A stretch of 64,000 bases of DNA from Chrysaora quinquecirrha (taxonomy: Eukaryota > Cnidaria > Scyphozoa > Semaeostomeae > Pelagiidae): the NCBI GenBank assembly GCA_014526335.1, contig JACTAT010000011.1, positions 861,151-925,150 of the forward strand, given 5' to 3'. This document shows, piece after piece, positions 9,125 to 58,332 of the stretch. The position numbers were made by a program, and so were the translations under genes. The first letter of the stretch is position 1. Every line of letters starts with the position of its first letter. The notes below the pieces were generated by a model. The model had not been told where the DNA came from. It worked only from the letters and a program-made list of their open reading frames with translations, and ran no database searches.

Positions 9125-9360
9125 CCTATGAGTAGGTTGCAAAGCAGTGGCCAAACTGCAGTGATGGTGGCCTCAGCCCAGTGACGTCATCAGTGACGTC
9201 ATCAGGTCGTGCTATAGTGTGACAGTTTTTATGAATCTAGTATGTTGATTTCTCCAACCTCGTCCCAGATCCCAGATCCTAGCGCACGCGGCTCATACTA
9301 TCAATAACGTCATCAGGTCGCGCTATAGTGCGACGAGTTTCAATTCTCCAACCTCAAGAG
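9125..9360. promoter_or_regulatory. FB1 left end: TSD, TIR start and CRE pair
   Basis: CCTATG at 9,125-9,130 is the target duplication, repeated at 16,792. The element starts at 9,131 with AGTAGGTTGCAAAG. TGACGTCA (the CREB/ATF site) occurs at 9,182-9,189 and 9,194-9,201, 12 bp apart. A motif ATCAGGTCGYGCTATAGTG then occurs twice, near 9,201 and 9,311. The second copy contains GTCGCGCTATAGTGCGAC, an 18-bp imperfect palindrome. The same layout occurs at both ends of FB2, so it is a conserved terminal module rather than chance. Confidence 0.85.
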
Positions 9361-9420
9361 TTCTTACAATCCTTGTCTGAAACCGCTAGCCTCGTTGCAG
9401 ATTTAACAACCTTTGCAATC

Positions 9421-9665
9421 TAGAAGTTTCCAGAATATTCCAGAACATCCCTAGGAATCCTGCAATCTGATTGGCTAGAACTTTCTAGAAGTTTCTAGAA
9501 GTTTCCAGAAATCCTACAATCTGATTGATTAATTATGATGGCGTAATAATAATTCGAACACGACGTTCGAATTGTTTATGAAATAAAATAACATAATAAT
9601 CCTGCAATCTGGATAACTAGAATTCTCCAGAACTTTCCAGAAAGTTCCACAAGATTCTAGAAACG
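9421..9665. promoter_or_regulatory. Heat-shock-element cluster, FB1 left arm
   Basis: Alternating TTC and GAA triplets at 5-bp spacing form HSF-type elements. At 9,475-9,511 GAACTTTCTAGAAGTTTC is followed by more units. Further clusters lie at 9,421-9,445 (TTTCCAGAATATTCCAGAA) and about 9,621-9,660. Inverted CCAAT boxes (GATTGG) are interspersed near 9,468. A dyad TTCGAA...TTCGAA lies at 9,553-9,571. The cluster sits 80-370 bp upstream of the TATA box of the Bcl-2-like gene, which suggests stress-inducible transcription. That is inference from motif spacing. Confidence 0.7.
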
Positions 9666-9739
9666 AGAAATCCTACAATCTGATTGATTAATAATTCAAA
9701 TGTCACGCCTGATTTAACAGAGAATCTCCATAGTATAGC

Positions 9740-9748
9740 TATATAAAT
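9740..9748 (+). promoter_or_regulatory. TATA box of left Bcl-2-like gene
   Basis: TATATAAAT lies 46-54 bp before the ATG at 9,794, a normal distance for an RNA polymerase II core promoter with a short leader. The mirrored copy is at 16,178-16,186. Confidence 0.7.
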
Positions 9749-9793
9749 CGAGAAGAAGCAACAGTCTGGTCATACCACTCGATAGATGCGAAG

Positions 9794-10285
9794 ATGATTT
9801 CACTAGCTTACCTCATATTCAACGCTGTGAAGAAGGAGCGGGAATTAACTAGAAAGAATCTAGTTGCATATTCTTTGGAGAGGAACTATGAATGTCGCAA
9901 TTTAGGAGTTATATCTTTCGAGAGACAATCAATCCCCATCAACAGTTCATACTATTATTGGATGCGAGATCTTTTAACATATGCAAGAGCTAGCTCTAAT
10001 AACTCAATAAAGTCTCAAGTAGAACAACATCAAGTCTTATCCAAGCTAGAAGCTAAAGGCCTAGTTTGTGGACTTTTTCCAATTATGGATAAAGAAGGAA
10101 ATTGGGGAAGAATGGCTGTGTTAATGATTTTTATTGAAGAACTTGCTGAGGGTTTAATGAAATATCATGATAGGACTGTAGCAACATCATTCATAGAAGA
10201 AATAAAAGAAGAAATCAATGATAAAGCATTAGGAGTTTGGGGTGAAAAACTATTAATTGACTCTGAATGTTTTATGTTATATTGA
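9794..10285 (+). CDS. Bcl-2-like protein, FB1 left copy
   Basis: 163 residues, about the size of the Bcl-2 core without a tail anchor. Residues 103-106 are NWGR, the hallmark of the BH1 motif, embedded in DKEGNWGRMAVLMIF. Residues 15-33 (ERELTRKNLVAYSLERNYE) resemble a BH4 helix with its REL...Y.L...Y spacing. Residues 136-152 (EIKEEINDKALGVWGEK) sit where BH2 is expected. A BH3-like helix may lie around 57-68, but the usual G-D pair is not clear. Bcl-2 proteins of this type block mitochondrial apoptosis; several DNA viruses, including adintoviruses, carry them. No C-terminal membrane segment is seen. The ATG follows a TATA box and heat-shock-like sites. The family call rests on motif reading only. 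Confidence 0.62.
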   Translation: MISLAYLIFNAVKKERELTRKNLVAYSLERNYECRNLGVISFERQSIPINSSYYYWMRDLLTYARASSNNSIKSQVEQHQVLSKLEAKGLVCGLFPIMDKEGNWGRMAVLMIFIEELAEGLMKYHDRTVATSFIEEIKEEINDKALGVWGEKLLIDSECFMLY

Positions 10286-10445
10286 AAAGTTGTCTTAAAT
10301 TACTACATTTAATTATATAAAAATAATGCTAAATTCAATTAATGAAAATGAAGTTGCTGGTTTACAAGATGTTTATATCTATTCAAAAACTATAAGAGAA
10401 TATACCAACAGATTAACAATTAGTATAATAAAAGAAGCCCATCAA

Positions 10446-10576
10446 CTGCGCATGCGCAGTAGCTATATCAATAACGGTAAGAGCTAGGGGCCTGGGAACT
10501 AGTATGTAGAACAAAGAAATAAAAGAGATTTGAATGATGTATGTCATATGAATATTCATCAAAGAGCGCATGCGCA
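10446..10576. promoter_or_regulatory. Two NRF1-type palindromes, FB1 left arm
   Basis: CTGCGCATGCGCAG at 10,446-10,459 and GCGCATGCGC at 10,566-10,575 match the nuclear respiratory factor 1 consensus YGCGCAYGCGCR. They lie in the roughly 500-bp gap between the convergent Bcl-2-like and zinc-finger genes and stand out in AT-rich DNA. Both are preserved on the other arm (15,351 and 15,467). Confidence 0.6.
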
Positions 10577-10809
10577 ATAGCAATATCTCTTATAGCTTAT
10601 GGTTTAATCCATGGTTTATGATAGCCTTATATTGTTTGTATGCAAAAGTATTATCTAAACATTACAATATATTACCTATATACTCGATAGATAATAGCAA
10701 TTTATTTATAGCATCGTTTTCAAAGAATGTTCACACAGAAACAAGGTTATATTTCTAACAGACAACTAATGAAGAATAATTTCTAAACATTTTTTAGGTA
10801 TAGCTATTT

Positions 10810-11313
10810 CTAATTATTTCCAAAGTATGGGAATGATTGAGTATGAACATATTCAACTTCTTTCACACCAGCATCCTCAGAATTACTAGCTTCCTCTTCT
10901 TCATCATTCTTTGCTTGACGTATGATGAGATATTTTCTTTTCTCAATTGCATAATCTAAAGCCTCTTGCATATCCATACCATCTTCCTTCTGTGCTTTTC
11001 GCATGGTTGCTATGACTGCAGTCACAACAGCATCATTTTCAAAACTTCTATTATATAAAAATTTACGCCTGAAGACTTGCAGTATGTTTTCATCTTTATC
11101 CACTTCCTTACGCATTGAAGGCCATACATTCCCTAAAGGAAGATCCTCCTCAGTGTTGACAGTTTCATCATCATCATGATCACTTTCAGCTTCTATCTCA
11201 TCATCTGAGTCAGACTCTTCACTACTCTCCTCATGCATCTCTTCTTCATGTCGCTTAACATTACTTTTAAACTTGGAAGAGAATTCACAATGATCACATT
11301 TATACTGATTCAT
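10810..11313 (-). CDS. Single C2H2 zinc-finger acidic protein, FB1 left copy
   Basis: 167 residues. The N-terminus has one C2H2 finger: C6 and C9 (YKCDHCEF), then H22 and H27 (C-x2-C-x12-H-x4-H). Residues 28-58 form an acidic Ser/Glu/Asp stretch. A conserved helical part (about 75-140, containing VFRRKFLYNRSF and MQEALDYAIEKRKYL) follows, and the end is SFPYFGNN. The family is not recognised beyond the finger. The right-arm copy encodes an identical protein with at least one synonymous difference (Val GTG versus GTT), which suggests constraint or recent arm-to-arm copying. TATA-like sequences (CTATAAATT and TATTTAAG) lie 30-80 bp upstream of the ATG. The gene reads away from the GATC array beside it. 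Confidence 0.8.
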   Translation of the reverse strand: MNQYKCDHCEFSSKFKSNVKRHEEEMHEESSEESDSDDEIEAESDHDDDETVNTEEDLPLGNVWPSMRKEVDKDENILQVFRRKFLYNRSFENDAVVTAVIATMRKAQKEDGMDMQEALDYAIEKRKYLIIRQAKNDEEEEASNSEDAGVKEVEYVHTQSFPYFGNN

Positions 11314-11465
11314 GATTAGCTAGTTGCTTATAATTGTCGACTACCTCTTAAATACCTGAGTCCTAGAGCATAAACTCGCTTGAATTTATAGACTGGTTCC
11401 TCCATTCAATATGATGTGGGAAAGGAATTCCACACTTGCGCAGGAAGGATGTTTCCAATCAGACC

Positions 11466-13248
11466 ATACCTAATCCATTGTTAATCCTTACTGATCCTCA
11501 CTAATCATACCTAATCCATAGTTAATCATTACTGATCCTTAACTAATCATTACTTCATCCTTGCTGATCCTTAGGTAATCCTTACAGATCCTGAGCTGAT
11601 CATTACCTGATCCTAACCTAATCCTTACTGATCCTCACTAATCATTACCTGATCCTCACTAATCCTCACTGATCCTTACTGATCCTCACTAATCCTTAGC
11701 TGATCCTTACTGATCCTTAACAAATCATTACCTGATCCTAACCTAATCCTTACTGATCCTCACTAATCATTACCTGATCCTCACTAATCCTCACTGATCC
11801 TTACTGATCCTCACTAATCCTTAGCTGATCCTTACTGATCCTTAACAAATCATTACTGATCCTTAGCTAATCCTTACTGATGATTACTGATCCTTGCTGA
11901 TCCTTAGCTAATCCTTACTGATCCTGAGCTAATCCTTACTGATCATTACTGATCCTTGCTGATCCTTAGCTAATCTTTACTGATCATTGCTGATCCTTGC
12001 TGATCCTGAGCTGATCCTTAATGATCCTTAGCTAATCCTTACTGATCTTTCACTAATCACTACTGATCCTTACTGATCCTCGGCTGATCCTTACTGATCC
12101 TTAACTAATCCTTACTGATCCTTACTGATCCTTGGCTGATCCTTACTGATCCTTAACTAATCATTACCTGAACCTTACTGATCCTTACTGATCCTTAACT
12201 AATCCTTACTGATCCTTAACTAATCATTACTGATCCTTAACTAATCCTTACTGATCCTTAACTAATCATTACTGATCCTAAGCTAATCATTACTGATCCT
12301 TAACTAATCCTTACCTGATCCTTAGCTAATCCTTGCTGATCCTTAACTAATCCTTACTGATCCTTAACTAATCATTACCTGATCCTAAGCTAATCATAAC
12401 TGATCCTGAGCTAATCCTTACTGATCATTACCTGATCCTAAGCTAATCATTACTGATCCTTAACTAATCCTTACTGATCCTCACTAATCATTACCTGATC
12501 CTCACTAATCCTCACTGATCCTTACTGATCCTCACTAATCCTTAGCTGATCCTTACTGATCCTTAACAAATCATTACTGATCCTTAGCTAATCCTTACTG
12601 ATGATTACTGATCGTTGCTGATCCTTAGCTAATCCTTACTGATCCTGAGCTAATCCTTACTGATCATTACTGATCCTTGCTGATCCTTAGCTAATCTTTA
12701 CTGATCATTGCTGATCCTTGCTGATCCTGAGCTGATCCTTAATGATCCTTAGCTAATCCTTACTGATCTTTCACTAATCACTACTGATCCTTACTGATCC
12801 TCGGCTGGTCCTTACTGATCCTTAACTAATCCTTACTGATCCTTACTGATCCTTACTGATCCTTGGCTGATCCTTACTGATCCTTAACTAATCATTACCT
12901 GAACCTTACTGATCCTTACTGATCCTTAACTAATCCTTACTGATCCTTAACTAATCATTACTGATCCTTAACTAATCCTTACTGATCCTTAACTAATCAT
13001 TACTGATCCTAAGCTAATCATTACTGATCCTTAACTAATCCTTACCTGATCCTTAGCTAATCCTTGCTGATCCTTAACTAATCCTTACTGATCCTTAACT
13101 AATCATTACCTGATCCTAAGCTAATCATAACTGATCCTGAGCTAATCCTTACTGATCATTACCTGATCCTAAGCTAATCATTACTGATCCTTAACTAATC
13201 CTTACTGATCCTCACTAATCATTACCTGATCCTCACTGATCCTCACTA
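11466..13248. repeat. FB1 left GATC array (10/11-bp units)
   Basis: A tandem array of units such as TGATCCTTAC (10), TAATCCTTAAC (11), TGATCCTTAGC (11) and TGATCCTCAC (10). Mixing 10- and 11-bp units gives a mean period close to one DNA helical turn. It has higher-order structure: the block starting CACTAATCATTACCTGATCC at 11,761 recurs at 12,482 and again begins at 13,212, a period of about 721-730 bp. Orientation reverses at about 13,248. No ORF spans it. Confidence 0.95.
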
Positions 13249-14462
13249 TTAAGGATTAGTTAAGGATTAGTAATTATTAGTGAGGATCAGGTAAGGATTA
13301 GGTTAGGATCAGTAAGGATTAGCTAAGGATCAGCGAGGATCAGTAATGATTAGTTAAGGATCGGTAAGGATCAGTAAGGATCAGTAAGGATCAGCTAAGG
13401 ATCAGTAATGATTTGTTAAGGATCAGTAAGGATCAGCTTAGGATCAGGTAATGATCAGTAAGGATTAGTGAGGATCAGGGCGAGGATCAGGAATGATTAG
13501 CTAAGGATCGGTAAGGATCAGTAAGGATCCGTGAAGATCAGTGAGGATCAGGTAATGATTAGTGAGGATCAGTAAGGATTAGTTAAGGATCAGTAATGAT
13601 TAGCTTAGGATCAGGTAATGATCAGTAAGGATTAGCTCAGGATCAGTTATGATTAGCTTAGGATCAGGTAATGATTAGTTAAGGATCAGTAAGGATTAGT
13701 TAAGGATCAGTAAGGATCAGGTAATGATTTAATGATTAGTTAAGGATCAGTAAGGATTAGCAGGTAAGGATCAGTAATGATTAGTAAAGATCAGTAAGGA
13801 TTAGCTAAGGATCTCAGGATCAGAGGATCAGCAATGATCAGTAAAGATTAGCTAAGGATCAGCAAGGATCAGTAATGATCAGTAAGGATTAGCTCAGGAT
13901 CAGTAAGGATTAGCTAAGGATCAGCAAGGATCAGTAATCATCAGTAAGGATTAGTTAAGGATCAGTAATGATTAGCTAAGGATCAGGTAATGATCAGTAA
14001 TGATCAGGTAATGATTAGTTAATGATTAGTAATTATTAGTGAGGATCAGGTAAGGATTAGGTTAGGATCAGTAAGGATTAGCTAAGGATCAGCAAGGATC
14101 AGTAATGATTAGTTAAGGATCGGTAAGGATCAGTAAGGATCAGCTAAGGATCAGTAATGATTTGTTAAGGATCAGTAAGGATCAGCTAAGGATTAGTGAG
14201 GATCAGTAAGGATCAGTGAGGATTAGTGAGGATCAGGTAATGATTAGTGAGGATCAGTAAGGATTAGGTTAGGATCAGGTAATGATTAGTTAAGGATCAG
14301 TAATGATTAGTGAGGATCAGTAATGATCAGCTCAGGATCTGTAAGGATTAGCTAAGGATCAGCAAGGATGAAATAATGATTAGTTAAGGATCAGTAATGA
14401 TTAACTATGGATTAGGTATGATTAGTGAGGATCAGTAAGGATTAACAATGGATTAGGTATGG
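13249..14462. repeat. FB1 right GATC array (inverted)
   Basis: The same 10/11-bp units in reverse complement (GTAAGGATCA, GTTAAGGATTA). It is about 0.57 kb shorter than the left array, so the arms have expanded or contracted independently while the unique parts stayed matched. Confidence 0.95.
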
Positions 14463-14534
14463 TCTGATTGGAAACATCCTTCCTGCGCAAGTGTGGAATT
14501 CCTTTCCCACATCATATTGAATGGAGGAACCAGT

Positions 14535-14612
14535 CTATCAATTCAAGCAAGTTTATGCTCTAGGACTCAGGTATTTAAGAGGTAGTCGACAATTATAAGC
14601 AAACAGCTAATC
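14535..14612 (+). promoter_or_regulatory. Promoter of right zinc-finger gene
   Basis: An inverted CCAAT box (TGATTGG near 14,465), a TATA-like box (CTATCAATTC here; CTATAAATTC in the other three copies) and TATTTAAGAGG about 40 bp before the ATG form a compact promoter directly between the array and the gene. All four copies in the window keep this layout. Confidence 0.5.
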
Positions 14613-15116
14613 ATGAATCAGTATAAATGTGATCATTGTGAATTCTCTTCCAAGTTTAAAAGTAATGTTAAGCGACATGAAGAAGAGATGCATGAGGAGA
14701 GTAGTGAAGAGTCTGACTCAGATGATGAGATAGAAGCTGAAAGTGATCATGATGATGATGAAACTGTCAACACTGAGGAGGATCTTCCTTTAGGGAATGT
14801 ATGGCCTTCAATGCGTAAGGAAGTTGATAAAGATGAAAACATACTGCAAGTCTTCAGGCGTAAATTTTTATATAATAGAAGTTTTGAAAATGATGCTGTT
14901 GTGACTGCAGTCATAGCAACCATGCGAAAAGCACAGAAGGAAGATGGTATGGATATGCAAGAGGCTTTAGATTATGCAATTGAGAAAAGAAAATATCTCA
15001 TCATACGTCAAGCAAAGAATGATGAAGAAGAGGAAGCTAGTAATTCTGAGGATGCTGGTGTGAAAGAAGTTGAATATGTTCATACTCAATCATTCCCATA
15101 CTTTGGAAATAATTAG
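14613..15116 (+). CDS. Single C2H2 zinc-finger acidic protein, FB1 right copy
   Basis: Mirror copy of the 10,810-11,313 gene with an identical 167-residue product: finger residues C6, C9, H22 and H27, an acidic linker, a helical domain and an SFPYFGNN end. Identity at the protein level across an inverted duplication that otherwise shows scattered differences suggests that the coding sequence is maintained. No catalytic motif is visible. It could be a DNA-binding accessory factor of the element, perhaps for the neighbouring repeats, but that is speculation. Confidence 0.8.
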   Translation: MNQYKCDHCEFSSKFKSNVKRHEEEMHEESSEESDSDDEIEAESDHDDDETVNTEEDLPLGNVWPSMRKEVDKDENILQVFRRKFLYNRSFENDAVVTAVIATMRKAQKEDGMDMQEALDYAIEKRKYLIIRQAKNDEEEEASNSEDAGVKEVEYVHTQSFPYFGNN

Positions 15117-15350
15117 AAATAGCTATACCTAAAAAATGTTTAGAAATTATTCTTCATTAGTTGTCTGTTAGAAATATAACCTTGTTTCTGTGTGAACATT
15201 CTTTGAAAACGATGCTATAAATAAATTGCTATTATCTATCGAGTATATAGGTAATATATTGTAATGTTTAGATAATACTTTTGCATACAAACAATATAAG
15301 GCTATCATAAACCATGGATTAAACCATAAGCTATAAGAGATATTGCTATT

Positions 15351-15480
15351 GCGCATGCGCTCTTTGATAAATATTCATATGACATACATCATTCAAATCT
15401 CTTTTATTTCTTTGTTCTACATACTAGTTCCCAGGCCTCTAGCTCTTACCGTTATTGATATAGCTACTGCGCATGCGCAG
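15351..15480. promoter_or_regulatory. Two NRF1-type palindromes, FB1 right arm
   Basis: GCGCATGCGC at 15,351-15,360 and CTGCGCATGCGCAG at 15,467-15,480, mirroring the left arm. The CpGs are intact although other CpGs in this element have decayed to TpG or CpA. Confidence 0.6.
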
Positions 15481-15640
15481 TTGATGGGCTTCTTTTATTA
15501 TACTAATTGTTAATCTGTTGGTATATTCTCTTATAGTTTTTGAATAGATATAAACATCTTGTAAACCAGCAACTTAATTTTCATTAATTGAATTTAGCAT
15601 TATTTCTATATAATTAAATGTAGTAATTTAAGACAACTTT

Positions 15641-16132
15641 TCAATATAACATAAAACATTCAGAGTCAATTAATAGTTTTTCAACCCAAACTCCTAATGC
15701 TTTATCATTGATTTCTTCTTTTATTTCTTCTATGAATGATGTTGCTACAGTCCTATCATGATATTTCATTAAACCCTCAGCAAGTTCTTCAATAAAAATC
15801 ATTAACACAGCCATTCTTCCCCAATTTCCTTCTTTATCCATAATTGGAAAAAGTCCACAAACTAGGCCTTTAGCTTCTAGCTTGGATAAGACTTGATGTT
15901 GTTCTACTTGAGACTTTATTGAGTTATTAGAGCTAGCTCTTGCATATGTTAAAAGATCTCGCATCCAATAATAGTATGAACTGTTGATGGGGATTGATTG
16001 TCTCTCGAAAGATATAACTCCTAAATTGCGACATTCATAGTTCCTCTCCAAAGAATATGCAACTAGATTCTTTCTAGTTAATTCCTGCTCCTTCTTCACA
16101 GCGTTGAATATGAGGTAAGCTAGTGAAATCAT
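15641..16132 (-). CDS. Bcl-2-like protein, FB1 right copy
   Basis: 163 residues, differing from the left copy at only two positions, R16Q and G150V. The second falls in the region aligned with BH2 (GVWGEK becomes GVWVEK). The BH1 NWGR motif is intact. The promoter layout is mirrored: a TATA element at 16,178-16,186 and TTC/GAA arrays at about 16,270-16,320 and 16,415-16,510. The pair may provide two doses of one anti-apoptotic factor. Function is inferred from BH motifs and not shown. Confidence 0.62.
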   Translation of the reverse strand: MISLAYLIFNAVKKEQELTRKNLVAYSLERNYECRNLGVISFERQSIPINSSYYYWMRDLLTYARASSNNSIKSQVEQHQVLSKLEAKGLVCGLFPIMDKEGNWGRMAVLMIFIEELAEGLMKYHDRTVATSFIEEIKEEINDKALGVWVEKLLIDSECFMLY

Positions 16133-16177
16133 CTTCGCATCTATCGAGTGGTATAACCAGACTGTTGCTTCTTCTCG

Positions 16178-16510
16178 ATTTATATAGCTATACTATGGAG
16201 ATTCTCTGTTAAATCAGGCGTGACGTTTGAATTATTAATCACTCAGATTGTAGGATTTCATGTTTCTAGAATCTTGTGGAACATTCTGGAAAGTTCTGGA
16301 GAATTCTAGTTATCCAGATTGCAGGATTATTATGTTATTTTATTTCATAAACGATTCGAACGTCGCGTTCGAATTATTATTACGCCATCATAATTAATCA
16401 ATCAGATTGTAGGATTTCTGGAAACTTCTGGAAACTTCTAGAAAGTTCTAGCCAATCAGATTGCAGGATTCTTAGGGATGTTCTGGAATATTCTGGAAAC
16501 TTGCAAAGGT
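16178..16510. promoter_or_regulatory. TATA box and heat-shock-like cluster, FB1 right arm
   Basis: ATTTATATA at 16,178-16,186 serves the minus-strand Bcl-2-like gene. Upstream of it are TTCTGGAAAGTTCTGGAGAA-type units near 16,285 and TTCTGGAAACTTCTGGAAAC near 16,420, with alternating GAA/TTC triplets at 5-bp spacing. The dyad TTCGAACGTCGCGTTCGAA (16,355-16,373) is perfect on this arm; the left copy has one G-to-A change. Confidence 0.7.
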
Positions 16511-16674
16511 TGTTAAATCGGAAATGAGGCTAGCGGTTTCAGACAAGGATTGTAAGAAATCTTGAGGTTGGAGAATTGAAACTCGTCGCACTATAGCGCG
16601 ACCTGATGATGTTATTGATAATATGAGCCGTGTGCGCTAGGATCTGGGACTCTTGAAAAGGAGGTTGGAGAAAT

Positions 16675-16797
16675 CAACATACTAGATTCATAAAAACCGT
16701 CACACTATAGCACGACCTGATGACGTCACTGATGATGTCACTGGGCTGAGGCCACCATCACTGCAGTTTGGCCACTGCTTTGCAATCTACTCCTATG
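16675..16797. promoter_or_regulatory. FB1 right end: CRE pair, TIR end and TSD
   Basis: TGACGTCA at 16,721-16,728 and a decayed TGATGTCA at 16,733-16,740 mirror the left CRE pair. The element ends GCAATCTACT at 16,791 (one change from the left end), followed by the CCTATG duplication at 16,792-16,797. Confidence 0.85.
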
Positions 16798-31007: not shown

Positions 31008-31019
31008 AATCTTAATCTG

Positions 31020-43954: not shown

Positions 43955-44353
43955 TCATTGCAACAAGTTTAGCAACTCTGGAGGAGGACAAGAACGACTG
44001 AGAGTGGCGATCAGCAATGTCAATGAAGATGAAGCAAGAGGCTCTAAAGACTCATTAGAATCGTAGGTGTGACGAGAAAGAGCGTCAGCATTAGCATTAG
44101 ACAAACCTGGTCGGTGAAGAATCAGGAAATCGTATTGTTGCAGCTGAAGAGCCCAACAAGCTAAGCGACCAGTCAGATCTTTGACATTCATGAGCCAGGA
44201 GAGACTACCGTGGTCCATATGAACAAAGAACCTCTGACCCGAAAGATAGGGCTGATACCGTTTTATCCCATCAACTACTGCCAAAGCTTCACGTTCCATG
44301 GTGCTATAGCGTTTCTCCGCAACATTTAGCTCACGCCCACCATAAGCGATCAC
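43955..44353 (-). pseudogene. Gypsy RNase H domain
   Basis: Contains IAYGGRELNVAEKRYSTMER, REALAVVDGIKRYQPYL and FFVHMDHGSLSWLMN (usually TDH, here MDH), ending at NADALSRH, the classic Gypsy RNase H/tether region. A stop separates it from RT. Confidence 0.88.
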
Positions 44354-44399
44354 ATGTTCCTTACCATCGTAAATCTGTCACAAAATGTAGCCTAAGGCA

Positions 44400-45200: not shown

Positions 45201-45327
45201 ATTATATCCTGCTGTAACATTTTTTCAATGTGACTATCTATTTCAGCTGAGCTTGGGAGACTCTATAAGGAGATTGCTTGATGGGCCTAGCATCGCCGTG
45301 TCAATGGCATGTTAAATAACTGATCTT

Positions 45328-46176: not shown

Positions 46177-46385
46177 AACGCTTCCCCAAATTTTTGGCGA
46201 AAATGCGCTTGACTAATACCAATACAAGGAATTACATTGTCCCATGCTTCCAGTTCTTGATCAGGTTCATGAAAATTCGGGGTTGAATTATTCCTTGTAG
46301 GTTGGGCCTTCAGTTCCCCCACATTGAAGACCTTGCCCCATTTAAATCTTGTTGGTTGCTTTGCATAAAATTTGACGTTTAATCA

Positions 46386-47428
46386 AATCGAGGTTGGTAT
46401 CCTTTAGTGTCAGGCTGATATCCCTGAAAACGAGGCTGAGGTTGGAAGGCTGTTTGATTTCCATTTCCCTGAAATCTGGCTTGATCATAAGCATTGCTGG
46501 GCTGATTTACTCTGAATTGACGTTGGCGAAACGGAGGTTGTTGACATGACTCCTGCTGCTCAATTTTGAACGGACAATATCTTGAAACATGTCCTACTCG
46601 GAAACAAACGTGACAGATTGGTTGGCCGTCTGTTCATCGCAAATTTCTGCCTCTGGGCTGTTGAAATCTAAGCTGATTTTTATTTGGGTTTCGGCAATGG
46701 ATTTACTTATTTGTTGAAACCCAGCTTGCATGGTGGCAACGATTCTTTCCTCTGAACTTTTTGAATCAAGATGATTTTGCAACATTCTGTCAGAAAAAGA
46801 AGCATTCGTGGCCAATGCGTTGATGGGCAGATTCAAAACATTATTTTTATTGGCCATCGAAATAAGAAGGTTGACTTGCCCCTCAGGCTCTTTAATTCTC
46901 AAATCCTGATTTGTAGACGTGGCTTTTTGTGGCGCAAAATCAGAGGAACTTGAAACCGCCTCTCTCAAACTGGCAAGATTTTCTGCTTCGGCAAATATTT
47001 TAGGCCGATTCAAAATTACATGATTTTTAATTTCATCTTTTGAGCCATTAATGAAAATATTCATTTTTTCTTTGTCAGACAATGTCAAGCGTTTGCATTT
47101 GCTCAAATTATCCGAGGTGAGGTGTACTTGGCCAAAGTTTCAGTCGGAGCTTGTTTGCGAGCATTAAGCTCTTGACGAAAAATGAAATCAACATTGGCAG
47201 TTCCAAACCTAGTTTGTAGGCCTTCAGTTACTTCGTCATTTCTGGATCCACGTTTTCATACCACACTGATGCTGCCCCTCCCAAATTATAAACCAGTGCG
47301 TTCAGTTTTCTCGCGTCGTTCCAGTTATAAAAAGCAGCGAATCTATTAAATTTCACAAGCCACTGATTGATATCCTCGCTTGGCATTCCCAAAAATGTAG
47401 GTTTTTTGAATAGCCCTGAAGATTCCAT
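46386..47428 (-). pseudogene. Gypsy gag
   Basis: Starts MESSGLFKKPTFLGMPSEDI, with the capsid-like phrase NQWLVKFNRFAAFYNW and ALVYNLGGAASVWYENV. The frame is broken at about 47,228 and resumes as KCKRLTLSDKEKMNIFINGS. After a frameshift near 46,600 there is a CCHC knuckle, CHVCFRVGHVSRYC. These identify nucleocapsid and capsid parts. Confidence 0.8.
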
Positions 47429-48627: not shown

Positions 48628-48975
48628 ATTTCCTTCAGATGCTGAATTCATAATTGCATGGCAGTCAGAATTGGAAGAATGCCAAGAAGATCTTCACAAA
48701 ATAGGCATCAACCCTGAAAATGACGTTAAAAGTAGCCCTGGAAATGCTTGGTTTCACCACATACCATAACTGCAACAACCGAAAAAAAAATTTGAACAAA
48801 TGTGGGCAGACAATGATAAAACATGTCAAGAAGCAGATGATGAAACAGGAAAATCGATAGAATGCGATGAAGAAAGTGCTGAAAGTGCCCATGATTACGT
48901 GGAGCAATATTTGGAATTAGCTCTCCACCTTCAGCAAGTCACCAATGATGTTGATAATGACAATTTGTTGCCTTC
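48628..48975 (+). pseudogene. Exon interrupted by FB2, left part
   Basis: A plus-strand frame (DAEFIIAWQSELEECQEDLH ... a TAA near 48,768 ... MWADNDKTCQEADDETGK ... NLLPS) is cut by FB2 at the GCCTTC target. Removing FB2 and one target copy joins it in frame to 58,333 onward (MQEKDGNLKVKLTVSV) up to a stop near 58,425. The protein is acidic and unrecognised. Confidence 0.5.
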
Positions 48976-49060
48976 AGTAGGTTGCAAACTGGGCTCATGA
49001 CTACCAGGGGCGTCTCACTAACAATGACGTCATCAGTGACGTCATCAGATCGCGCTATAG
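48970..49060. promoter_or_regulatory. FB2 left end: TSD, TIR start and CRE pair
   Basis: GCCTTC at 48,970-48,975, the element start AGTAGGTTGCAAACTGGG at 48,976, TGACGTCA at 49,025-49,032 and 49,037-49,044 (12 bp apart as in FB1), then ATCAGATCGCGCTATAGTA. Confidence 0.86.
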
Positions 49061-49215
49061 TAGGACGGGTTTTACAGAAACTGCTAGCCTCGTTTCCGAT
49101 TTAACAGTCTTTGCAATCGGTTTGACAAAACAACGCAGTATAAACAGCTGGTAGTAAGTGGTGGTTTTGAAAAAAACCGTTTTGTTTAAGTTGTTGTCGC
49201 AAGAAGCCTAGGCTC

Positions 49216-49416
49216 TCAAGGAGAAATATTCATTTTAATCTTGAATGAGCCATCTCTGAAGACCAACATCATGATTTTAATCCATTGCTCATCCTCCGGA
49301 TTATGAGCCACCTCGTCATCTTCTTTGGGGCAGCTATGATAGCACCCCTGATAAGGCAACAAGGCCCAACAACTCTGGCATTCAAAAATCTGGACTTGGT
49401 CTTCTTTGATGTCCAT
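49216..49416 (-). CDS. 66-residue Cys-rich protein, FB2 left copy
   Basis: MDIKEDQVQIFECQSCWALL followed by a second Cys pair gives C13-x2-C16-x8-C25-x3-C29 with H27, a compact zinc-binding candidate. The C-terminal half (EDEQWIKIMMLVFRDGSFKI) looks like beta strand. Family not recognised. The ATG follows a TTTTTATAG acceptor; a GTAAGT donor about 410 bp upstream suggests a non-coding first exon. The right-arm copy is identical over 66 residues, suggesting constraint or recent copying. The heat-shock-like array lies upstream of the first exon. Confidence 0.6.
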   Translation of the reverse strand: MDIKEDQVQIFECQSCWALLPYQGCYHSCPKEDDEVAHNPEDEQWIKIMMLVFRDGSFKIKMNISP

Positions 49417-50004
49417 ATTCTATAAAAAGAAAATATATAAAAACCTACAAGTCTGAACTATTCAAAACACCTCGTGGATTGTAAAAAATCAAAACGAAAT
49501 GAGCCGATAAGCTACATAAACCATCGACATAAACTTTTCATCTTTAAAATCCTCTTGGGAATGAAAAGAAAAGGGTCAAGTTTTAATAAAAAATTAAATT
49601 GAGAATTTAGTTGAAAGAATTGAAACGAAGAATTGAAGTGAGAGATTCTAGGCCCGACCAGGTCTCGAAACTTCGTAAGTTTCACGGCTTTTAGAATAAG
49701 TTATAGCCAAAACAAATAAAACTGAAACATCCTTAAATAAGCAAAAAATAGTTATTTTCAGTTAAAATTACAAGAAAACTACATTTCTAACATTTTTTTG
49801 AGAAAAAGTAGGGAAAAGTGAAAGGTACTTACCACAATTCCAAGAAATTTTCCAAGAGTGTTTACATTTGCTGACGTGACGCCAATTTTAATTTTTCCCG
49901 CGATAAAATCCTCGTCACGTGACACGTCGTTATCGAATAACTTTCTGAAGAAGACTAGATCTGATTATGTTTCCAACTTACAGCGATTTGATTGGTTAAA
50001 ACTC

Positions 50005-50155
50005 TTGTTTTCAGAAGTTTCCAGAACTTTCTAGAAGTTTCCAGAAGTTTCCAGAACTTTCTAGAAGTTTTCGAAGTTTCCAGAAATTTCTAGAAGTTTC
50101 CAGAAGTTTCTAGAACTTTCCAGAAGTTTCCAGAACTTTCTAGAAGTTTCATTGC
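50005..50155. promoter_or_regulatory. Dense heat-shock-element array, FB2 left arm
   Basis: About 150 bp of near-continuous TTTCTAGAAGTTTCCAGAA units: TTC and GAA triplets alternate every 5 bp, the HSF-binding arrangement. It begins near TTTTCAGAAG and stops at TTTCATTGCC, exactly where sequence shared with FB1 resumes. It lies upstream of the 66-residue gene and downstream of the zinc-finger gene. Confidence 0.8.
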
Positions 50156-50341
50156 CTATATACTCTATAGATAATAGCAATTTATTTATAGCATCGTTTT
50201 CAAAGAATGTTCACACAGAAACAGCGTTATATTTCTAACAGACAACTAATGAAGAATAATTTCTAAAAATTTTTAGGTATAGCTATTTCTAATTATTTCC
50301 AAAGTATGGGAATGATTGAGTGCGAACATATTCAACTTCTT

Positions 50342-50791
50342 TCACACCAGATCCTTAGAATTACTAGCTTCCTCTTCTTCATCATTCTTTGCTCGATGTC
50401 TGATGAGATATTTTCTTTTCTCAATAGCATAATCTAAGGCCTCTTGCATATCCATACCATCTTCCGTCTGTGCTTTTCGCATGGTTGCTATTTCTGCAGT
50501 CACAACAGCATTATTTTCAAAACTTCTATTATATAAAAATTTACGCCTGAAGACTTGCAGTATGTTTTCATCTTTATCCACTTCCTTACGCATTGAAGGC
50601 CATACATTCCCTAAAGGAAGATCCTCCTCAGTGTTGACAGTTTCAGCATTATCATGGTCACTTTCCACTTCTATCTCATCATCTGAGTCAGACTCTTCAC
50701 TACTCTCCTCGTGCATCTCTTGTTCATGTCGCTTAACATTACTTTTAAACTTGGAAGAGAATTCACAATGATCACATTTATACTGATTCAT
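50342..50791 (-). pseudogene. Zinc-finger protein gene, FB2 left copy, frameshifted
   Basis: Homologue of the FB1 zinc-finger gene with the finger intact (C6, C9, H22, H27). A 1-bp deletion relative to FB1 (GATGCTGG becomes GATCTGG) truncates it at 149 residues, ending NSKDLV; the lost tail including FPYFGNN is still encoded in the next frame. The right arm carries the same deletion. It also differs from the right copy at several residues (e.g. N/D, E/V and T/K in the helical part). Confidence 0.78.
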
Positions 50792-50942
50792 TATTATCTG
50801 CTTACTTATAATTGTCGACTACCACTTAAACACCTGAGTCCTAGAGCATAAACTCGCTTGAATTTATAGACTGGTTCCTCCTTTCAATATGATGTGGGAA
50901 AGGAATTCCACACTTGCGCAGGAAGGATGTTTCCAATCAAAC

Positions 50943-53900
50943 CATACCTTATCACTAACTAATCATAATCCTAAGTTATCATTACTTAATCCTCAACAAT
51001 CATGAGCTAATTCTTACTGATCCTTAGCTAATCCTTGCTTATCCTTAACTAATCCTTACAGATCCTGAGCTGATCCTTATTGATCCTCACTAATCCTTAC
51101 TGATCCTTACTGATCCCTAACTAATCCTTACTGATCCTAAACTAATCATTACTAATCCTTAGCTGATCCTTACTGATCCTTAGCTAATCGTTACTGATCA
51201 TTACTGATCCTTGCTGATCCTTACTGATCCCTAGCTAATCCTTACTGATCCTAACCTAATCCTTACTGATCCTTAACTAATCATTACCTGATCCTCACTA
51301 ATCATTACTGATCCTTAACTAATGATTTCCTGATCATTAACTAATCATTACTGATCCTTAACTAATCATTACCTGATCCTCACTAATCATTACTGATCCT
51401 TAACTAATCATTACCTGATCCTCACTAATCCTTAGCTGATCCTTACTGATCCTTAACTAATCATTACTGATCCTTAGCTAATCCTTACAGATCCTGAGCT
51501 GATCCTTACTGATCCTCACTCATCCTTACTGATCCTAAACTAATTATTGCTTAATTATTACTAATCCTTAGCTGATCCTAGGCTGATCCTTACTGATCCT
51601 TAACTAATCCTTACTGATCCTTAAAAAATCATAACCTGATCCTCACTAATCATTACTGATTCTTTACTAATCATTAATTGATCCTCACTAATCATTACTG
51701 ATCCTTAACTAATGATTACCTGATCCTCACTAATCATTACTGATCCTTAACTAATCATTACTGATCCTTAGCTAATCCTTACAGATCCTGAGCTGATCAT
51801 AACTGATCCTCACTCATCCTTACTGATCCTAAACTAATCATTGCTTAATTATTACTAATCCTTAGCTGATCCTTACTGATCCGTAGCTAATCGCTACTGA
51901 TCAGTACTGATCCTTAGCTGATCCTCACTAATCATTACTGATCCTTAACTAATGATTACCTGATCCTCACTAATCATTACTGATCCTCACTAATCATTAC
52001 TGATCCTTAACTAATCACTACCTGATCCTAACCTAATCCTTACTGATCCTCACTAATCATTACCTGATCCTCACTAATCCTTAGCTGATCCTTAACTAAT
52101 CATTACTGATCCTTAGCTGATCCTTACTGATCCTTACTGATCCTTACTGATCCTTAGCTAATCCTTACTGATCCTTAACTAATCATTACCTGATCCTCAC
52201 TAATCATTACTGATCCTTAACTAATGATTACCTGATCCTCACTAATCATTACTGATCCTTAACTAATCATTACCTGATCCTCACTAATCATTACTGATCC
52301 TTAACTAATGATTACCTGACACTCACTAATCATTACTGATCCTCACTAATCATTACTGATCCTTAACTAATCATTACCTGATCCTAACCTTATCCTTACT
52401 GATCCTCACTAATCATTACCTGATCCTCACTAATCCTTAGCTGATCCTTACTGCTCCTTAACTAATCATTACTGATCCTTAGCTAATCCTTACAGATCCT
52501 GAGCTGATCCTTACTGATCCTCACTAATCATTACCTGATCCTCACTAATCCTTAGCTGATCCTTACTGCTCCTTAACTAATCATTAGTGATCCTTAGCTA
52601 ATCCTTACAGATCCTGAGCTGATCCTTACTGATCCTCACTCATCCTTACTGATCCTTAACTAACCATTGCTTAATTATTACTAATCCTTAGCTTATCTTA
52701 GGCTGATCCTTACTGATCCTTAACTAATCCTTACTGATCCTTAACTAATCATTACCTGATCCTCACTAATCATTACTGATCCTTAACTAATCATTACCTG
52801 ATCCTCACTAATCCTTAGCTGATCCTTACTGATCCTTAACTAATCATTACTGATCCTTAGCTAATCCTTACAGATCCTGAGCTGATCCTTACTGATCCTC
52901 ACTCATCCTTACTGATCCTAAACTAATCATTGCTTAATTATTACTAATCCTTAGCTGATCCTAGGCTGATCCTTACTGATCCTTAACTAATCCTTACTGA
53001 TCCTTAAAAAATCATAACCTGATCCTCACTAATCATTACTGATTCTTTACTAATCATTAATTGATCCTCACTAATCATTACTGATCCTTAACTAATGATT
53101 ACCTGATCCTCACTAATCATTACTGATCCTTAACTAATCATTACTGATCCTTAGTTAATCCTTACAGATCCTGAGCTGATCATTACTGATCCTCACTCAT
53201 CTTTACTGATCCTAAACTAATCATTGCTTAATTATTACTAATCCTTAGCTGATCCTTACTGATCCGTAGCTAATCGCTACTGATCAGTAATGATCCTTAG
53301 CTGATCCTCACTAATCATTACTGATCCTTAACTAATGATTACCTGATCCTCACTAATCATTACTGATCCTCACTAATCATTAATGATCCTTAACTAATCA
53401 CTACCTGATCCTAACCTAATCCTTACTGATCCTCACTAATCATTACCTGATCCTCACTAATCCTTAGCTGATCCTTAACAAATCATTACTGATCCTTAGC
53501 TGATCCTTACTGATCCTTACTGATCCTTGCTGATCCTTAGCTAATCCTTACTGATCCTTAACTAATCATTACCTGATCCTCACTAATCATTACTGATCCT
53601 TAACTAATGATTACCTGATCCTCACTAATCATTACTGATCCTTAACTAATCATTACTGATCCTTAGCTAATCCTTACAGATCCTTAGCTGATCCTTACTG
53701 ATCCTTACTGATCCTTGCTGATCCTTAGCTAATCCTTACTGATCCTTAACTAATCATTACCTGATCCTCACTAATCATTACTGATCCTTAACTAATGATT
53801 ACCTGATCCTCACTAATCATTACTGATCCTTAACTAATGATTACCTGATCCTCACTAATCATTACTGATCCTTAACTAATGATTACCTGACACTCACAAA

Positions 53901-55022
53901 TCATTACTGATCCTCACTAATCATTACTGATCCTTAACTAATCATTACCTGATCCTAACCTTATCCTTACTGATCCTCACTAATCATTACCTGATCCTCA
54001 CTAATCCTTAGCTGATTCTTACTGCTCCTTAACAAATCATTACTGATCCTTAGCTGATCCTTACTGATCCTTACTTATCCTTGCTGATCCTTAGCTAATC
54101 ATTACTGATCCTAACCTAATCCTTACCTGATCCTCACTAATCATTACTGATCCTTAACTAATCATTACCTGATCATTACTGATCATTACCTGATCCTTAG
54201 CTAATCATTACTGATCCTGAGCTAATCCTTACTGATCATTACTGATCCTTGCTGATCCTTAGCTAATCCTTACTGATCCTGAGCTAATCCTTACTGATCA
54301 TTACTGATCTTTGCTGATCCTTAGCTAATCTTTACTGATCATTGCTGATCCTTGCTCATCCTGAGCTGATCCTTAATGATCCTTAGCTAATCCTTACTGA
54401 TCTTTCACTAATCACTACTGATCCTAACCTAATCATTGCTTAATCATTACTGATCCTGAGCTAATCCTTACTGATCATTACTGATCCTTGCTGATCCACA
54501 CTATTCCTTAGCTGATCCTTAATGATCCTTAACTAATCATTCCTGATCCTTAGCTGATCCTTACTGATCCTTACTGATACTTACTGATCCTTAGCTAATC
54601 CTTAGCTGATCCTTACTGATCCTTAACTATTCATTACTGATCCTTAGCTGATCGTTACTGATCCTCACTGATCCTTAACTAATCATTACCTGATCCTTAG
54701 CTAATCCTTACTGATCCTTAATTAATCCTTACTGATCCTGGGCTGATCCTTACTGATCCTTAACTAATCATTACCTGATCATTACTGATCATTACCTGAT
54801 CCTAAGCTTATCATTACTGATCCTGAGCTAATCCTTACTGATCCTTAACTAATCCTTACTGATCCTTACTGATCCTGGGCTGATCCTTACTGATCCTAAC
54901 CTAGTCCTTACTGATCATTACTGATCCTCGCTGATCCTTAGCTAATCCTTACTGATCCTTAACTAATCCTTACTGATCCTTACTGATCCTTAGCTAATCA
55001 TTACTGATCCTTAACTAATCCT
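50943..55022. repeat. FB2 left GATC array
   Basis: About 4.1 kb of TGATCCTTAC/TAATCCTTAAC-type 10/11-bp units. A higher-order period of exactly 1,383 bp is visible: TTAATTATTACTAATCC at 51,551 and 52,934, CCGTAGCTAATCGCTACTG at 51,881 and 53,264, and CTTACAGATCCTGAGCTG at 51,484 and 52,867. Confidence 0.95.
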
Positions 55023-55047
55023 CCTAATACTTTACTAGCTATTTCAT

Positions 55048-55099
55048 CCAATGAGCAATGTCTTGAATCAGAGATTCTAGAACATTGCAACTTCATTGG
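55048..55099. repeat. FB2 apex: nested hairpin at the dyad centre
   Basis: The short non-repetitive spacer between the two arrays is itself palindromic: CCAATGA, GCAATGT, then GAATC-AGA-GATTC, then ACATTGC and TCATTGG, with small bulges (ctt/taga and aact). The centre is 55,071. Confidence 0.85.
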
Positions 55100-55100
55100 C

Positions 55101-56347
55101 TCAGCTAAGGATCAGTAATGATTAGTTAAGGATCAGTAAGGATTAGCTAAGGATCAGCAAGGATCAGTAAGGATCAGCTAAGGATCAGTAATGATTTGTT
55201 AAGGATCAGCTAAGGATTAGTGAGGATCAGGTAATGATTAGTGAGGATCAGTAAGGATTAGGTTAGGATCAGGTAGTGATTAGTTAAGGATCAGTAATGA
55301 TTAGTGAGGATCAGTAATGATTAGTGAGAATCAGGTAATCATTAGTTAAGGATCAGTAATGATTAGTGAGGATCAGCTAACGATCAGTAATGATCAGTAA
55401 CGATTAGCTACGGATCAGTTAGGATCAGCTAAGGATTAGTAATAATTAAGCAATGATTAGTTTAGGATCAGTAAGGATGAGTGAGGATCAGTAAGGATCA
55501 GCTCAGGATCTGTAAGGATTAGCTAAGGATCAGTAATGATTAGTTAAGGATCAGTAATGATTAGTGAGGATCAGGTAATCACTAGTTAAGGATCAGTAAT
55601 GATTAGTGAGGATCAATTAATGATTAGTAAAGAATCGGTAATGATTAGTGAGGATCAGGTTATGATTTTTTAAGGATCAGTAAGGATTAGTTAAGGATCA
55701 GTAAGGATCAGCCTAGGATCAGCTAAGGATTAGTAATAATTAAGCAATGATTAGTTTAGGATCAGTAAGGATGAGTGAGGATCAGTAAGGATCAGCTCAA
55801 GATCTGTAAGGATTAGCTAAGGATCAGTAATGATTAGTTAAGGATCAGTAAGGATCAGCTAAGGATTAGTGAGGATCAGGTAATGATTAGTTAATGATCA
55901 GTAATGATTAGTGAGGATCAGGTAATGATTAGTTAAGGATCAGTAATGATTAGTTAAGGATCAGGTAATCATTAGTTAAGGATCAGTAATGATTAGTGAG
56001 GATCAGGTAATGATTAGTTAAGGATCAGTAAGGATTAGGTTAGGATCAGTAAGGATTAGCTAGGGATCAGTAAGGATCAGCAAGGATCAGTAATGATCAG
56101 TAACGATTAGCTAAGGATCAGTAAGGATCAGCTAAGGATTAGTAATGATTAGTTTAGGATCAGTAAGGATTAGTTAGGGATCAGTAAGGATCAGTAAGGA
56201 TGAGTGAGGATCAGTAAGGATCAGCTCAGGATCTGTAAGGATTAGTTAAGGATAAGCAAGGATTAGCTAAGGATCAGTAAGAATTAGCTCATGATTGTTG
56301 GGGATTAAGTAATGATAACTTAGGATTATGATTAGTTAGTGATAAGG
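55101..56347. repeat. FB2 right GATC array (inverted)
   Basis: About 1.25 kb of GTAAGGATCA/GTTAAGGATTA units, the reverse complement of the left array but far shorter. Confidence 0.95.
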
Positions 56348-56502
56348 TATGGTTTGATTGGAAACATCCTTCCTGTGCAAGTGCAGAATTCCTTTCCCAC
56401 ATCGTATTGAATGGAGGAACCAGTCTATAAATTCAAGCGAGTTTATGCTCTAGGACTCAGGTGTTTAAGTGGTAGTCAACAATTATAAGTAAGCAGATAA
56501 TC

Positions 56503-56952
56503 ATGAATCAGTATAAATGTGATCATTGTGAATTCTCTTCCAAGTTTAAATGTAATGTTAAGCGACATGAACAAGAGATGCACGAGGAGAGTAGTGAAGA
56601 GTCTGACTCAGATGATGAGATAGAAGTGGAAAGTGACCATGATAATGCTGAAACTGTCAACACTGAGGAGGATCTTCCTTTAGGGAATGTATGGCCTTCA
56701 ATGCGTAAGGAAGTGGATAAAGATGAAAACATACTGCAAGTCTTCAGGCGTAAATTTTTATATAATAGAAGTTTTGAAAATGATGCTGTTGTGACTGCAG
56801 TCATAGCAACCATGCGAAAAGCACAGAAGGAAGATGGTATGGATATGCAAGAGGCCTTAGATTATGCTATTGAGAAAAGAAAATATCTCATCAGACATCG
56901 AGCAAAGAATGATGAAGAAGAGGAAGCTAGTAATTCTAAGGATCTGGTGTGA
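56503..56952 (+). pseudogene. Zinc-finger protein gene, FB2 right copy, frameshifted
   Basis: 149 residues, the same truncating 1-bp deletion as the left copy. The finger residues are intact; S17 is Cys here (KFKCNVKRH). TATA-like CTATAAATTC and the promoter context match FB1. Confidence 0.78.
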
Positions 56953-57139
56953 AAGAAGTTGAATATGTTCGTACTCAATCATTCCCATACTTTGGAAATA
57001 ATTAGAAATAGCTATACCTAAAAAATTTTAAGAAATTATTCTTCATTAGTTGTCTGTTAGAAATATAACGCTGTTTCTGTGTGAACATTCTTTGAAAACG
57101 ATGCTATAAATAAATTGCTATTATCTATAGAGTATATAG

Positions 57140-57302
57140 GCAATGAAACTTCTAGAAAGTTCTGGAAACTTCTGGAAACTTCTAGAAAGTTCTGGAAACT
57201 TCTGAAAACTTCTAGAAATTTCTGGAAACTTCGAAAACTTCTAGAAAGTTCTGGAAACTTCTGGAAACTTCTAGAAAGTTCTGGAAACTTCTGAAAACAA
57301 GA
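57140..57302. promoter_or_regulatory. Dense heat-shock-element array, FB2 right arm
   Basis: Mirror of 50,005-50,155: AACTTCTAGAAAGTTCTGGA-type units with 5-bp alternating GAA/TTC. The array ends about 170 bp before a GTAAGT donor (57,472) that marks the first exon of the 66-residue gene. Confidence 0.8.
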
Positions 57303-57469
57303 GTTTTAACCAATCAAATCGCTGTAAGTGGAAACATAATCAGATCTAGTCTTCTTCAGAAAGTTATTCGATAACGACGTGTTACGTGACGAGGATTTTA
57401 TTGCGGGAAAAATTAAAATTGGCGTCACGTCAGCAAATGTAAACACTCTTGGAAAATTTCTTGGAATTG

Positions 57470-57885
57470 TGGTAAGTACCTTTCACTTTTCCCTACTTTT
57501 TCTCAGAAAAGTGTTAGAAATGTAGTTTTCTTGTAATTTTAACTTAAAATAACTTTTTTGCTTATTTAAGGATGTTTCATTTTTATTTGTTTTGGCTATA
57601 ACTTATTCTAAAAGCCGTGAAACTTACGAAGTTTCGAGACCCGGTCGGGCCTAGAATCTCTCACTTCAATTCTTCGTTTCAATTCTTTCAACTAAATTCT
57701 CAATTTAATTTTTTATTAAAACTTGACCCTTTTCTGTTCATTCCCAAGAGGATTTTAAAGATGAAAAGTTTATGTCGATGGTTTATGTAGCTTATCGGCT
57801 CATTTCGTTTTGATTTTTTACAATCCATGAGGTGTTTTGAATAGTTCAGACTTGTAGGTTTTTATATATTTTCTTTTTATAGAAT
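57470..57885 (+). other. Probable 5' intron of the 66-residue gene
   Basis: GGAATTGTG|GTAAGTACC at 57,472 and TTTTCTTTTTATAG|AATATG at about 57,882 fit a 410-bp GT-AG intron placing a non-coding exon before the ATG at 57,886. The left arm keeps the same sites. Confidence 0.6.
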
Positions 57886-58086
57886 ATGGACATCAAAGAA
57901 GACCAAGTCCAGATTTTTGAATGCCAGAGTTGTTGGGCCTTGTTGCCTTATCAGGGGTGCTATCATAGCTGCCCCAAAGAAGATGACGAGGTGGCTCATA
58001 ATCCGGAGGATGAGCAATGGATTAAAATCATGATGTTGGTCTTCAGAGATGGCTCATTCAAGATTAAAATGAATATTTCTCCTTGA
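57886..58086 (+). CDS. 66-residue Cys-rich protein, FB2 right copy
   Basis: Identical in sequence to the left-arm product, with C13, C16, C25, C29 and H27. It is the first ORF inside the right end, taking the place the Bcl-2-like gene has in FB1. No homologue recognised. Confidence 0.6.
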   Translation: MDIKEDQVQIFECQSCWALLPYQGCYHSCPKEDDEVAHNPEDEQWIKIMMLVFRDGSFKIKMNISP

Positions 58087-58224
58087 GAGCCTAGGCTTCT
58101 TGCCACAACAACTTAAACAAAACGGTTTTTTTCAAAACCACCACTTACTACCAGCTGTTTATACTGCGTTGTTTTGTCAAACCGATTGCAAAGACTGTTA
58201 AATCGGAAACGAGGCTAGCAGTTT

Positions 58225-58332
58225 CAGTAAAACCCGTCGTACTATAGCGCGATCTGATGACGTCACTGATGACGTCATTGGTAGTGAGACGCCCCTGGTA
58301 GTCATGAGCCCAGTTTGCAACCTACTGCCTTC
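58225..58332. promoter_or_regulatory. FB2 right end: CRE pair, TIR end and TSD
   Basis: ACTATAGCGCGATCTGATGA leads into TGACGTCA at 58,258-58,265 and 58,270-58,277. The element ends GCAACCTACT at 58,326, followed by GCCTTC at 58,327-58,332. Confidence 0.86.

Follow-up and report, generated by a model that had tools for sequence, protein, structure and literature searches.

What are the two large palindromes that stand in this stretch of the Chrysaora quinquecirrha genome (64,000 nucleotides of contig JACTAT010000011.1, positions 861,151 to 925,150; here called the window), and how do they come to be symmetrical? A preliminary description had taken them for two giant palindromic elements, each bounded by an exact 6-bp duplication. 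Both points are borne out: the elements, FB1 and FB2, occupy 9131-16791 (7,661 bp) and 48976-58326 (9,351 bp) exactly and are flanked by CCTATG/CCTATG and GCCTTC/GCCTTC, respectively. 5'-AG ends and 6-bp duplications typify Polinton/Maverick elements, relatives of adintoviruses, as that description pointed out. We consider it rather probable that FB1 and FB2 are palindromic satellites of Polintons that depend on trans-acting enzymes for replication and integration and are renewed through snap-back copying.

Each element consists of head-to-head arms joined by a central tandem array of an approximately 10-bp unit (ATCCTTACTG) whose strand flips mid-array. Outside the arrays, the two arms are identical at 2312 of 2346 positions in FB1 and at 2004 of 2034 in FB2 (98.5% in both cases); arms of FB1 compared with those of FB2 show ~90% identity over aligned columns and more than 900 gap columns. 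An open reading frame (ORF) of C2H2 zinc-finger type is present on every arm, and the FB1 arms additionally bear a Bcl-2-like ORF and a short remnant of a Fic gene. The termini read AGTAG(G/A)TTGCAAA, and 5'-AG...CT-3' ends are present on both elements. The same first bases had been described for both; this holds for the left end of FB1 and both ends of FB2 (AGTAGGTTGCAAA), but the right end of FB1 carries one change (AGTAGATTGCAAA). Within the window, the exact terminal 13-mer and AGTAGGTTG are confined to the ends of FB1 and FB2. Neither PolB nor an integrase was found among the ORFs of at least 100 amino acids (aa) in either element. FB1 and FB2 look like non-autonomous derivatives of Polintons, not Polintons themselves.

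The genome (328 Mb, 740 contigs; element loci are numbered L0xx and contigs Cxxx) was searched for full-length Polintons with the same ends, and such elements are present. Two-ended ones lie on C285, C109 and C295, and C457 has one end together with integrase and PolB. The C109 and C295 elements measure 17.5 and 18.0 kb and have integrase inside. The end pair of the C285 element (L022) is 23.6 kb apart; L022 has the same end and PolB (73.9 bits, cut-off 25.8); it also matches endonuclease VII and, weakly, adenovirus protease (16.2 bits against a cut-off of 21.3). L020, on C457, has the same end, with Fic and a Pox_A32-type ATPase above the Pfam cut-off, a retrovirus-type integrase core (rve) at 31.8 bits against a cut-off of 32.6, and PolB further along the contig. 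L012 combines the same end with the start of PolB, endonuclease VII scoring above and PolB below the cut-off. The terminal 360-577 bases of FB1 are 83-86% identical to the ends of PolB/integrase elements. In a tree of ends, the three Polinton ends (L012, L020, L022) do not group, L012 pairing with a satellite end (88/81). Holding the three as a single clade, named after the tree was seen, is rejected by the approximately unbiased (AU) test (p-AU 0.0001), with many forks in the tree left open; Polinton and satellite ends are therefore intermixed. ORF fragments at L020 679-1360, near the left end, resemble by eye the N-terminus of the L022 PolB; this Polinton's PolB lies at the other side. The fragments may mark a partial duplication of an end inside the Polinton, and the first of them had no Pfam match.

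Genome-wide, there are 25 PolB places and at least 150 integrase matches. Pairing drew on 79 distinct ends (from 100 of 140 raw matches) plus 19 ends from examined loci, with 102 of 150 integrase matches, 150 of 151 C2H2 matches and all 25 PolB places listed as markers. Among 19 convergent end pairs, 15 contain a listed C2H2 ORF and none of these a listed integrase; 14 span 3.1-11.8 kb and one 16.8 kb. Two pairs (17.5 and 18.0 kb) contain integrase, one (on C324, at locus L028) is a palindrome whose C2H2 ORF is broken, and the last (23.6 kb) is that of the C285 element. No pair has both C2H2 and integrase among the listed matches. A listed C2H2 place is found within 12 kb of none of the 102 listed integrase places and of one of the 25 PolB places, at 10.1 kb. 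Inward of 22 ends hand-picked for nearby Polinton genes, so that the 20 of 22 with integrase are no rate, integrase lies at 6.6-7.4 kb in seven, at 9.2-10.9 kb in seven and at other distances in six; the two ends on C285 had none among the matches listed. The C2H2 ORF had no match in the Polinton pieces L012, L020 and L022 or in 25 PolB loci, nor was a decamer array reported from L020 or L022.

Other copies of the palindromes were also sought. Scoring of 40 of 619 candidates yielded at least 42 DNA matches to the FB1 end, and scoring of 150 of 500 yielded at least 151 to the C2H2 marker (each palindrome counts twice). A pattern of the terminal 13-mer and a TGACGTCATCA close by was matched 140 times in raw count, with some ends double-counted, against 0 for a reversed control pattern, which rules out a chance origin of the shared ends. 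In 32 ends chosen for AGTAG and a nearby cyclic AMP response element (CRE), a selection that makes the count descriptive, AGTAGG was present in 30 and AGTAGA in two. The copies, some truncated, have a common layout of Polinton-type end, optional cargo, C2H2 ORF, decamer array and mirror image. Of the 37 listed pairs of adjacent C2H2 places with under 10 kb between them, 32 stand in mirror order (-+), four are ++, one is -- and none +-. The length of the duplication is constant across copies: it is exact in 8 of 9 two-ended palindromic elements, and L028 matches at 5 of 6 bases. FB1 and FB2 belong to a large and diversified family. The preliminary view of them as non-autonomous, head-to-head Polinton derivatives holds for the shared termini, the lack of PolB and integrase ORFs and the arrangement of the arms, but they are not one-off fixed products.

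Members of this family differ in cargo. The Bcl-2-like ORF and Fic remnant are carried by FB1, L014, L015, L018, L019, L021 and L024; a 211-aa ORF, myhf, by four copies on C257 (L009-L011), L013, L016, L017 and L027; and the FB2 segment by FB2 and L025. L023, L026 and L028 are cargo-free. (The four C257 copies lie in the same orientation within ~25 kb, at 1785000-1812000, two of them 5.1 kb apart.) The ends fall into at least two types by eye, which combine with different cargoes; in FB2 and L025, for example, the cargo is shared but the ends are very different. The two arms carry the same cargo in all 12 elements with both arms in view. In the end tree, the two ends of one element pair as sisters in all nine elements, L024 being weakly supported (90/75) and on a long branch. 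Permutation of end-plus-cargo labels, assigned by eye to nine elements, produced a full match in 22 of 200,000 trials. Whole arms find their best match in the opposite arm in 9 of 12 elements, the arm-to-arm difference across the 12 being 0.1-2.8%. A tree of the C2H2 core resolves the two arms of an element as sisters in 5 of 10 cases (L016, L019, L021, L025 and FB2), and raw distances put the own arm closest in 9 of 10, the exception being L026. A simply inherited palindrome would show the opposite, with left arms of different elements closer to one another than to their own right arms. Because end type and cargo reassort yet match across both arms, the arms appear to have been renewed many times; judged from these alignments and trees, the palindromes look repeatedly re-made or homogenised.

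Polinton replication could supply such renewal. The satellites would keep a Polinton-type terminus as presumed replication origin and integrase site, and each arm inside it would hold optional cargo, the conserved C2H2 ORF and half of the decamer array. PolB and integrase would act in trans, because the satellites encode neither: Polinton PolB would copy the linear satellite DNA from protein-primed ends, and Polinton integrase would insert it with a 6-bp duplication. The displaced strand may fold back, or a copy may arrest in the central array and snap back, so that one arm templates the other. Snap-back copying of this kind would renew the palindrome and mirror a new end or cargo gained on one arm. 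The anatomy fits a snap-back defective genome, with head-to-head arms and retention of the end that would bear the origin.

Several observations weigh against satellites renewed in this way. Mirrored pairs under 10 kb take in at most 64 of the 150 listed C2H2 places, and a single full arm only is present in L014 and L018. There are 60 unpaired ends, of which 18 are near C2H2, 18 near Polinton genes and 24 near neither, and the C2H2-bearing end pair of 16.8 kb has a single listed C2H2. In 3 of 12 elements the opposite arm is equalled or surpassed by some other arm (L017, a near tie; L024, interrupted, and L026, deleted, both of them rearranged), and the C2H2-core tree leaves 4 of 10 unresolved (FB1, L015, L026, L028) and is contradicted by L017. 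Chromosomal gene conversion could also account for the homogenisation: stable palindromes would have formed once long ago and been integrated as such, their arms being kept alike in the manner of sex-chromosome inverted repeats. This would likewise give sister arms in trees, and with arms differing by 0.1-2.8% homogenisation need not be instantaneous. However, whole cargo (12 of 12) and end swaps (9 of 9) would need mirroring in each element, and the arms of L028 are 99.9% identical, compared with 95.5% for the nearest other arm, as if made new at insertion. We judge this account unlikely.

The preliminary description had suggested possibly fixed snap-back products; taken as independent one-off defective genomes of Polintons, these would each be fixed by chance and have no lineage of their own. 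Snap-back defective genomes are described for adeno-associated virus (AAV; PMC8235507), and the Fic remnant and ends are common to a Polinton, but the C2H2 ORF, unmatched in the Polinton pieces and PolB loci, is family-wide and conserved, and the decamer array, not reported from L020 or L022, is common to the family; this origin is very unlikely. It is highly improbable that FB1 and FB2 are foldback-type cut-and-paste transposons with an unrelated transposase of their own and a coincidental likeness to Polinton ends. They do lack PolB and integrase, and 0.9 kb past FB2 there is an unrelated ORF of rva_4 integrase type. That ORF is outside the duplication, however, and AGTAGGTTG occurs in the window at FB ends only; the identity of FB1 ends to those of PolB/integrase elements and the constant 6-bp duplication speak against coincidence too. 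The rva_4 transposase was rejected as mobiliser, since its ORF sits outside FB2. Chimeric fold-back reads are a scarcely credible source. Palindromes are a classic assembly artefact and L015 abuts a run of N, but independent copies share the layout, and artefact was rejected because the arms differ and the flanking duplications are exact.

The palindromes also carry small genes of their own. The C2H2 ORF has a median ratio of nonsynonymous to synonymous substitution (dN/dS) of 0.27 (167 pairs, 19 intact ORFs), with 0.33-0.47 in the most diverged pairs; the Bcl-2-like ORF has a median of 0.47 (13 pairs), and myhf one of 0.84 (11 pairs), a value pushed up by two copies whose C-terminus is shifted. 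These values come from non-independent pairs with dS above 0.02, among ORFs with a start motif (19 of 27 C2H2, 6 of 7 Bcl-2-like and 6 of 7 myhf). Because its dN/dS is low, the C2H2 protein is probably kept by selection, and the ORF looks to be under purifying selection. The FB1 cargo ORF is likely Bcl-2-like, with Pfam scores (E 0.0057 and 0.0015; for its relatives P0005 and P0006, E 2.2e-4 and 3.1e-7) below the curated cut-off. The predicted structure is poor (predicted local distance difference test, pLDDT, 54); the 40 best Foldseek rows are all Bcl-2-family entries, none significant, and VIA-align did not separate Bcl-2 proteins from designed helical ones. No Bcl-2 chain came up at E <= 1 when solved structures were searched with a profile. 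The Bcl-2-like ORF had no match in L012, L020, L022 or the 25 PolB loci, and in the viral contigs searched no relative of it or of the L022 PolB was confirmed. For myhf, Pfam gave no match at E <= 0.1, and a search for homologues found none at E <= 0.001.

The ends are rich in candidate regulatory motifs. The four terminal segments of FB1 and FB2, which total 3.6 kb, hold all seven TGACGTCA (CRE) sites of the window and 63 of its 68 three-unit heat-shock elements; four heat-shock matches lie in the 47 kb beyond the elements, and the interiors have none. In 500 order-1 shuffles per segment, means were at most 0.06, and never more than one CRE or two heat-shock matches arose. The Polinton ends of L012, L020 and L022 bear the same heat-shock and CRE motifs, and TATA-like boxes were seen by eye upstream of the FB1 Bcl-2-like and C2H2 ORFs. 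Control of the terminal repeats by heat-shock factor (HSF) and CREB/ATF is a hypothesis suggested by these motifs. More speculative, and somewhat doubtful as a whole, is a picture of self-renewing palindromic polintovirus satellites that would take termini from different Polintons, acquire host-manipulating genes such as a Bcl-2 homologue, mirror every acquisition on both arms by snap-back, and be stress-switched via the terminal HSF and CREB/ATF sites.

Table 1. Features of FB1 and FB2 by position in the window.
Feature	Position	Strand	Remark
Target-site duplication CCTATG, FB1 left copy	9125..9130	.	
FB1 left terminal repeat: AGTAG end, two CRE (TGACGTCA) sites, heat-shock-element matches	9131..9640	+	homologous to Polinton ends L012, L020, L022
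Bcl-2-like ORF (NWGR BH1-like motif), FB1 left arm	9794..10285	+	TATA-like box just upstream, by eye
Fic-type gene remnant, FB1 left arm	10350..10460	+	94% identity over 84 bp to Fic gene of L020 Polinton
C2H2 zinc-finger ORF (family marker), FB1 left arm	10810..11313	-	
FB1 decamer array (ATCCTTACTG)n, left half	11484..13247	+	
FB1 decamer array, mirrored half	13250..14442	-	
C2H2 ORF, FB1 right arm	14613..15116	+	
Fic remnant, FB1 right arm	15466..15575	-	
Bcl-2-like ORF, FB1 right arm	15641..16132	-	
FB1 right terminal repeat	16286..16791	-	
Target-site duplication CCTATG, FB1 right copy	16792..16797	.	
Target-site duplication GCCTTC, FB2 left copy	48970..48975	.	
FB2 left terminus, two CRE sites	48976..49080	+	other end type than FB1
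FB2 cargo segment, left arm	49081..50000	+	without ORF >=100 aa; common to element L025
Heat-shock-element array, FB2 left arm	50007..50150	+	
C2H2 ORF, FB2 left arm	50342..50791	-	
FB2 decamer array, left half	51013..55022	+	longer half
FB2 decamer array, mirrored half	55101..56281	-	
C2H2 ORF, FB2 right arm	56503..56952	+	
Heat-shock-element array, FB2 right arm	57145..57298	-	
FB2 cargo segment, right arm	57305..58221	-	
FB2 right terminus	58222..58326	-	
Target-site duplication GCCTTC, FB2 right copy	58327..58332	.	

Other features share the window. Just outside FB2, at 59190-60247, ORFs with a weak helix-turn-helix (HTH) match and the rva_4 integrase core (Pfam E 3e-59) make up what we take to be an IS3EU-like transposon; an HTH ORF similar by eye lies at L022 1007-1720. 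Transposon-like ORF groups at 23072-25377, 26731-31091 and 43484-47139 are presumably of THAP/P type, Helitron type (helicase) and Gypsy type (pol). At 36348-41797, a 2.73-kb unit is duplicated head-to-tail at 99.8% identity, a recent tandem duplication or an assembly effect.

Adenovirus incomplete particles, which carry long inverted terminal repetitions, resemble the satellites in symmetric end duplications from protein-primed linear DNA; unlike the satellites, they are not known as a propagating, integrated family that has a conserved gene of its own. Foldback (FB/Galileo) transposons have very long inverted repeats with tandem units as well, but a different transposase and duplication length, in contrast to the 6-bp duplication and Polinton-type ends here. 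Polintons have 6-bp duplications, end motifs (AG)3 and (AGT)2 and a mean length of ~17 kb in vertebrates (PMC8097293), and use a protein-primed PolB and a DDE integrase (PMC8097293, PMC6431247). The satellites share with Polinton/Maverick elements AG-type ends, terminal inverted repeats and 6-bp duplications, and their termini are homologous to those of this genome's Polintons; they differ in being mostly 3-12 kb, wholly palindromic and without PolB or integrase, and in having their own C2H2 ORF and decamer array. A symmetric duplicated end is also seen in AAV snap-back subgenomic particles (PMC8235507); AAV, however, is a parvovirus whose particles are replication by-products in cells, unlike the family here, which is heritable and diversified, sits in chromosomes and is tied to protein-primed Polintons. 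Adintoviruses, relatives of Polintons, are defined in PMC11071296 by a PolB with an OTU-like N-terminus and an integrase with a chromodomain; according to that paper, most of those associated with mammals seem to carry genes for anti-apoptotic homologues and/or candidate oncogenes. Unlike in adintoviruses as portrayed there, the Bcl-2-like ORF here sits on a small palindromic element and is unmatched in L012, L020 and L022. No palindromic Polinton derivative was found among the titles and abstract openings listed from the CC0, CC BY and CC BY-SA literature searched.

Polintons are thought to stand near the root of many eukaryotic DNA viruses. If FB1 and FB2 are palindromic Polinton satellites, Polintons would gain satellite parasites like those of other viruses, and the terminal motifs offer a directly testable hypothesis of stress-responsive promoters. 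The family would then be a genomic record of germ-line template switching in protein-primed Polinton replication.

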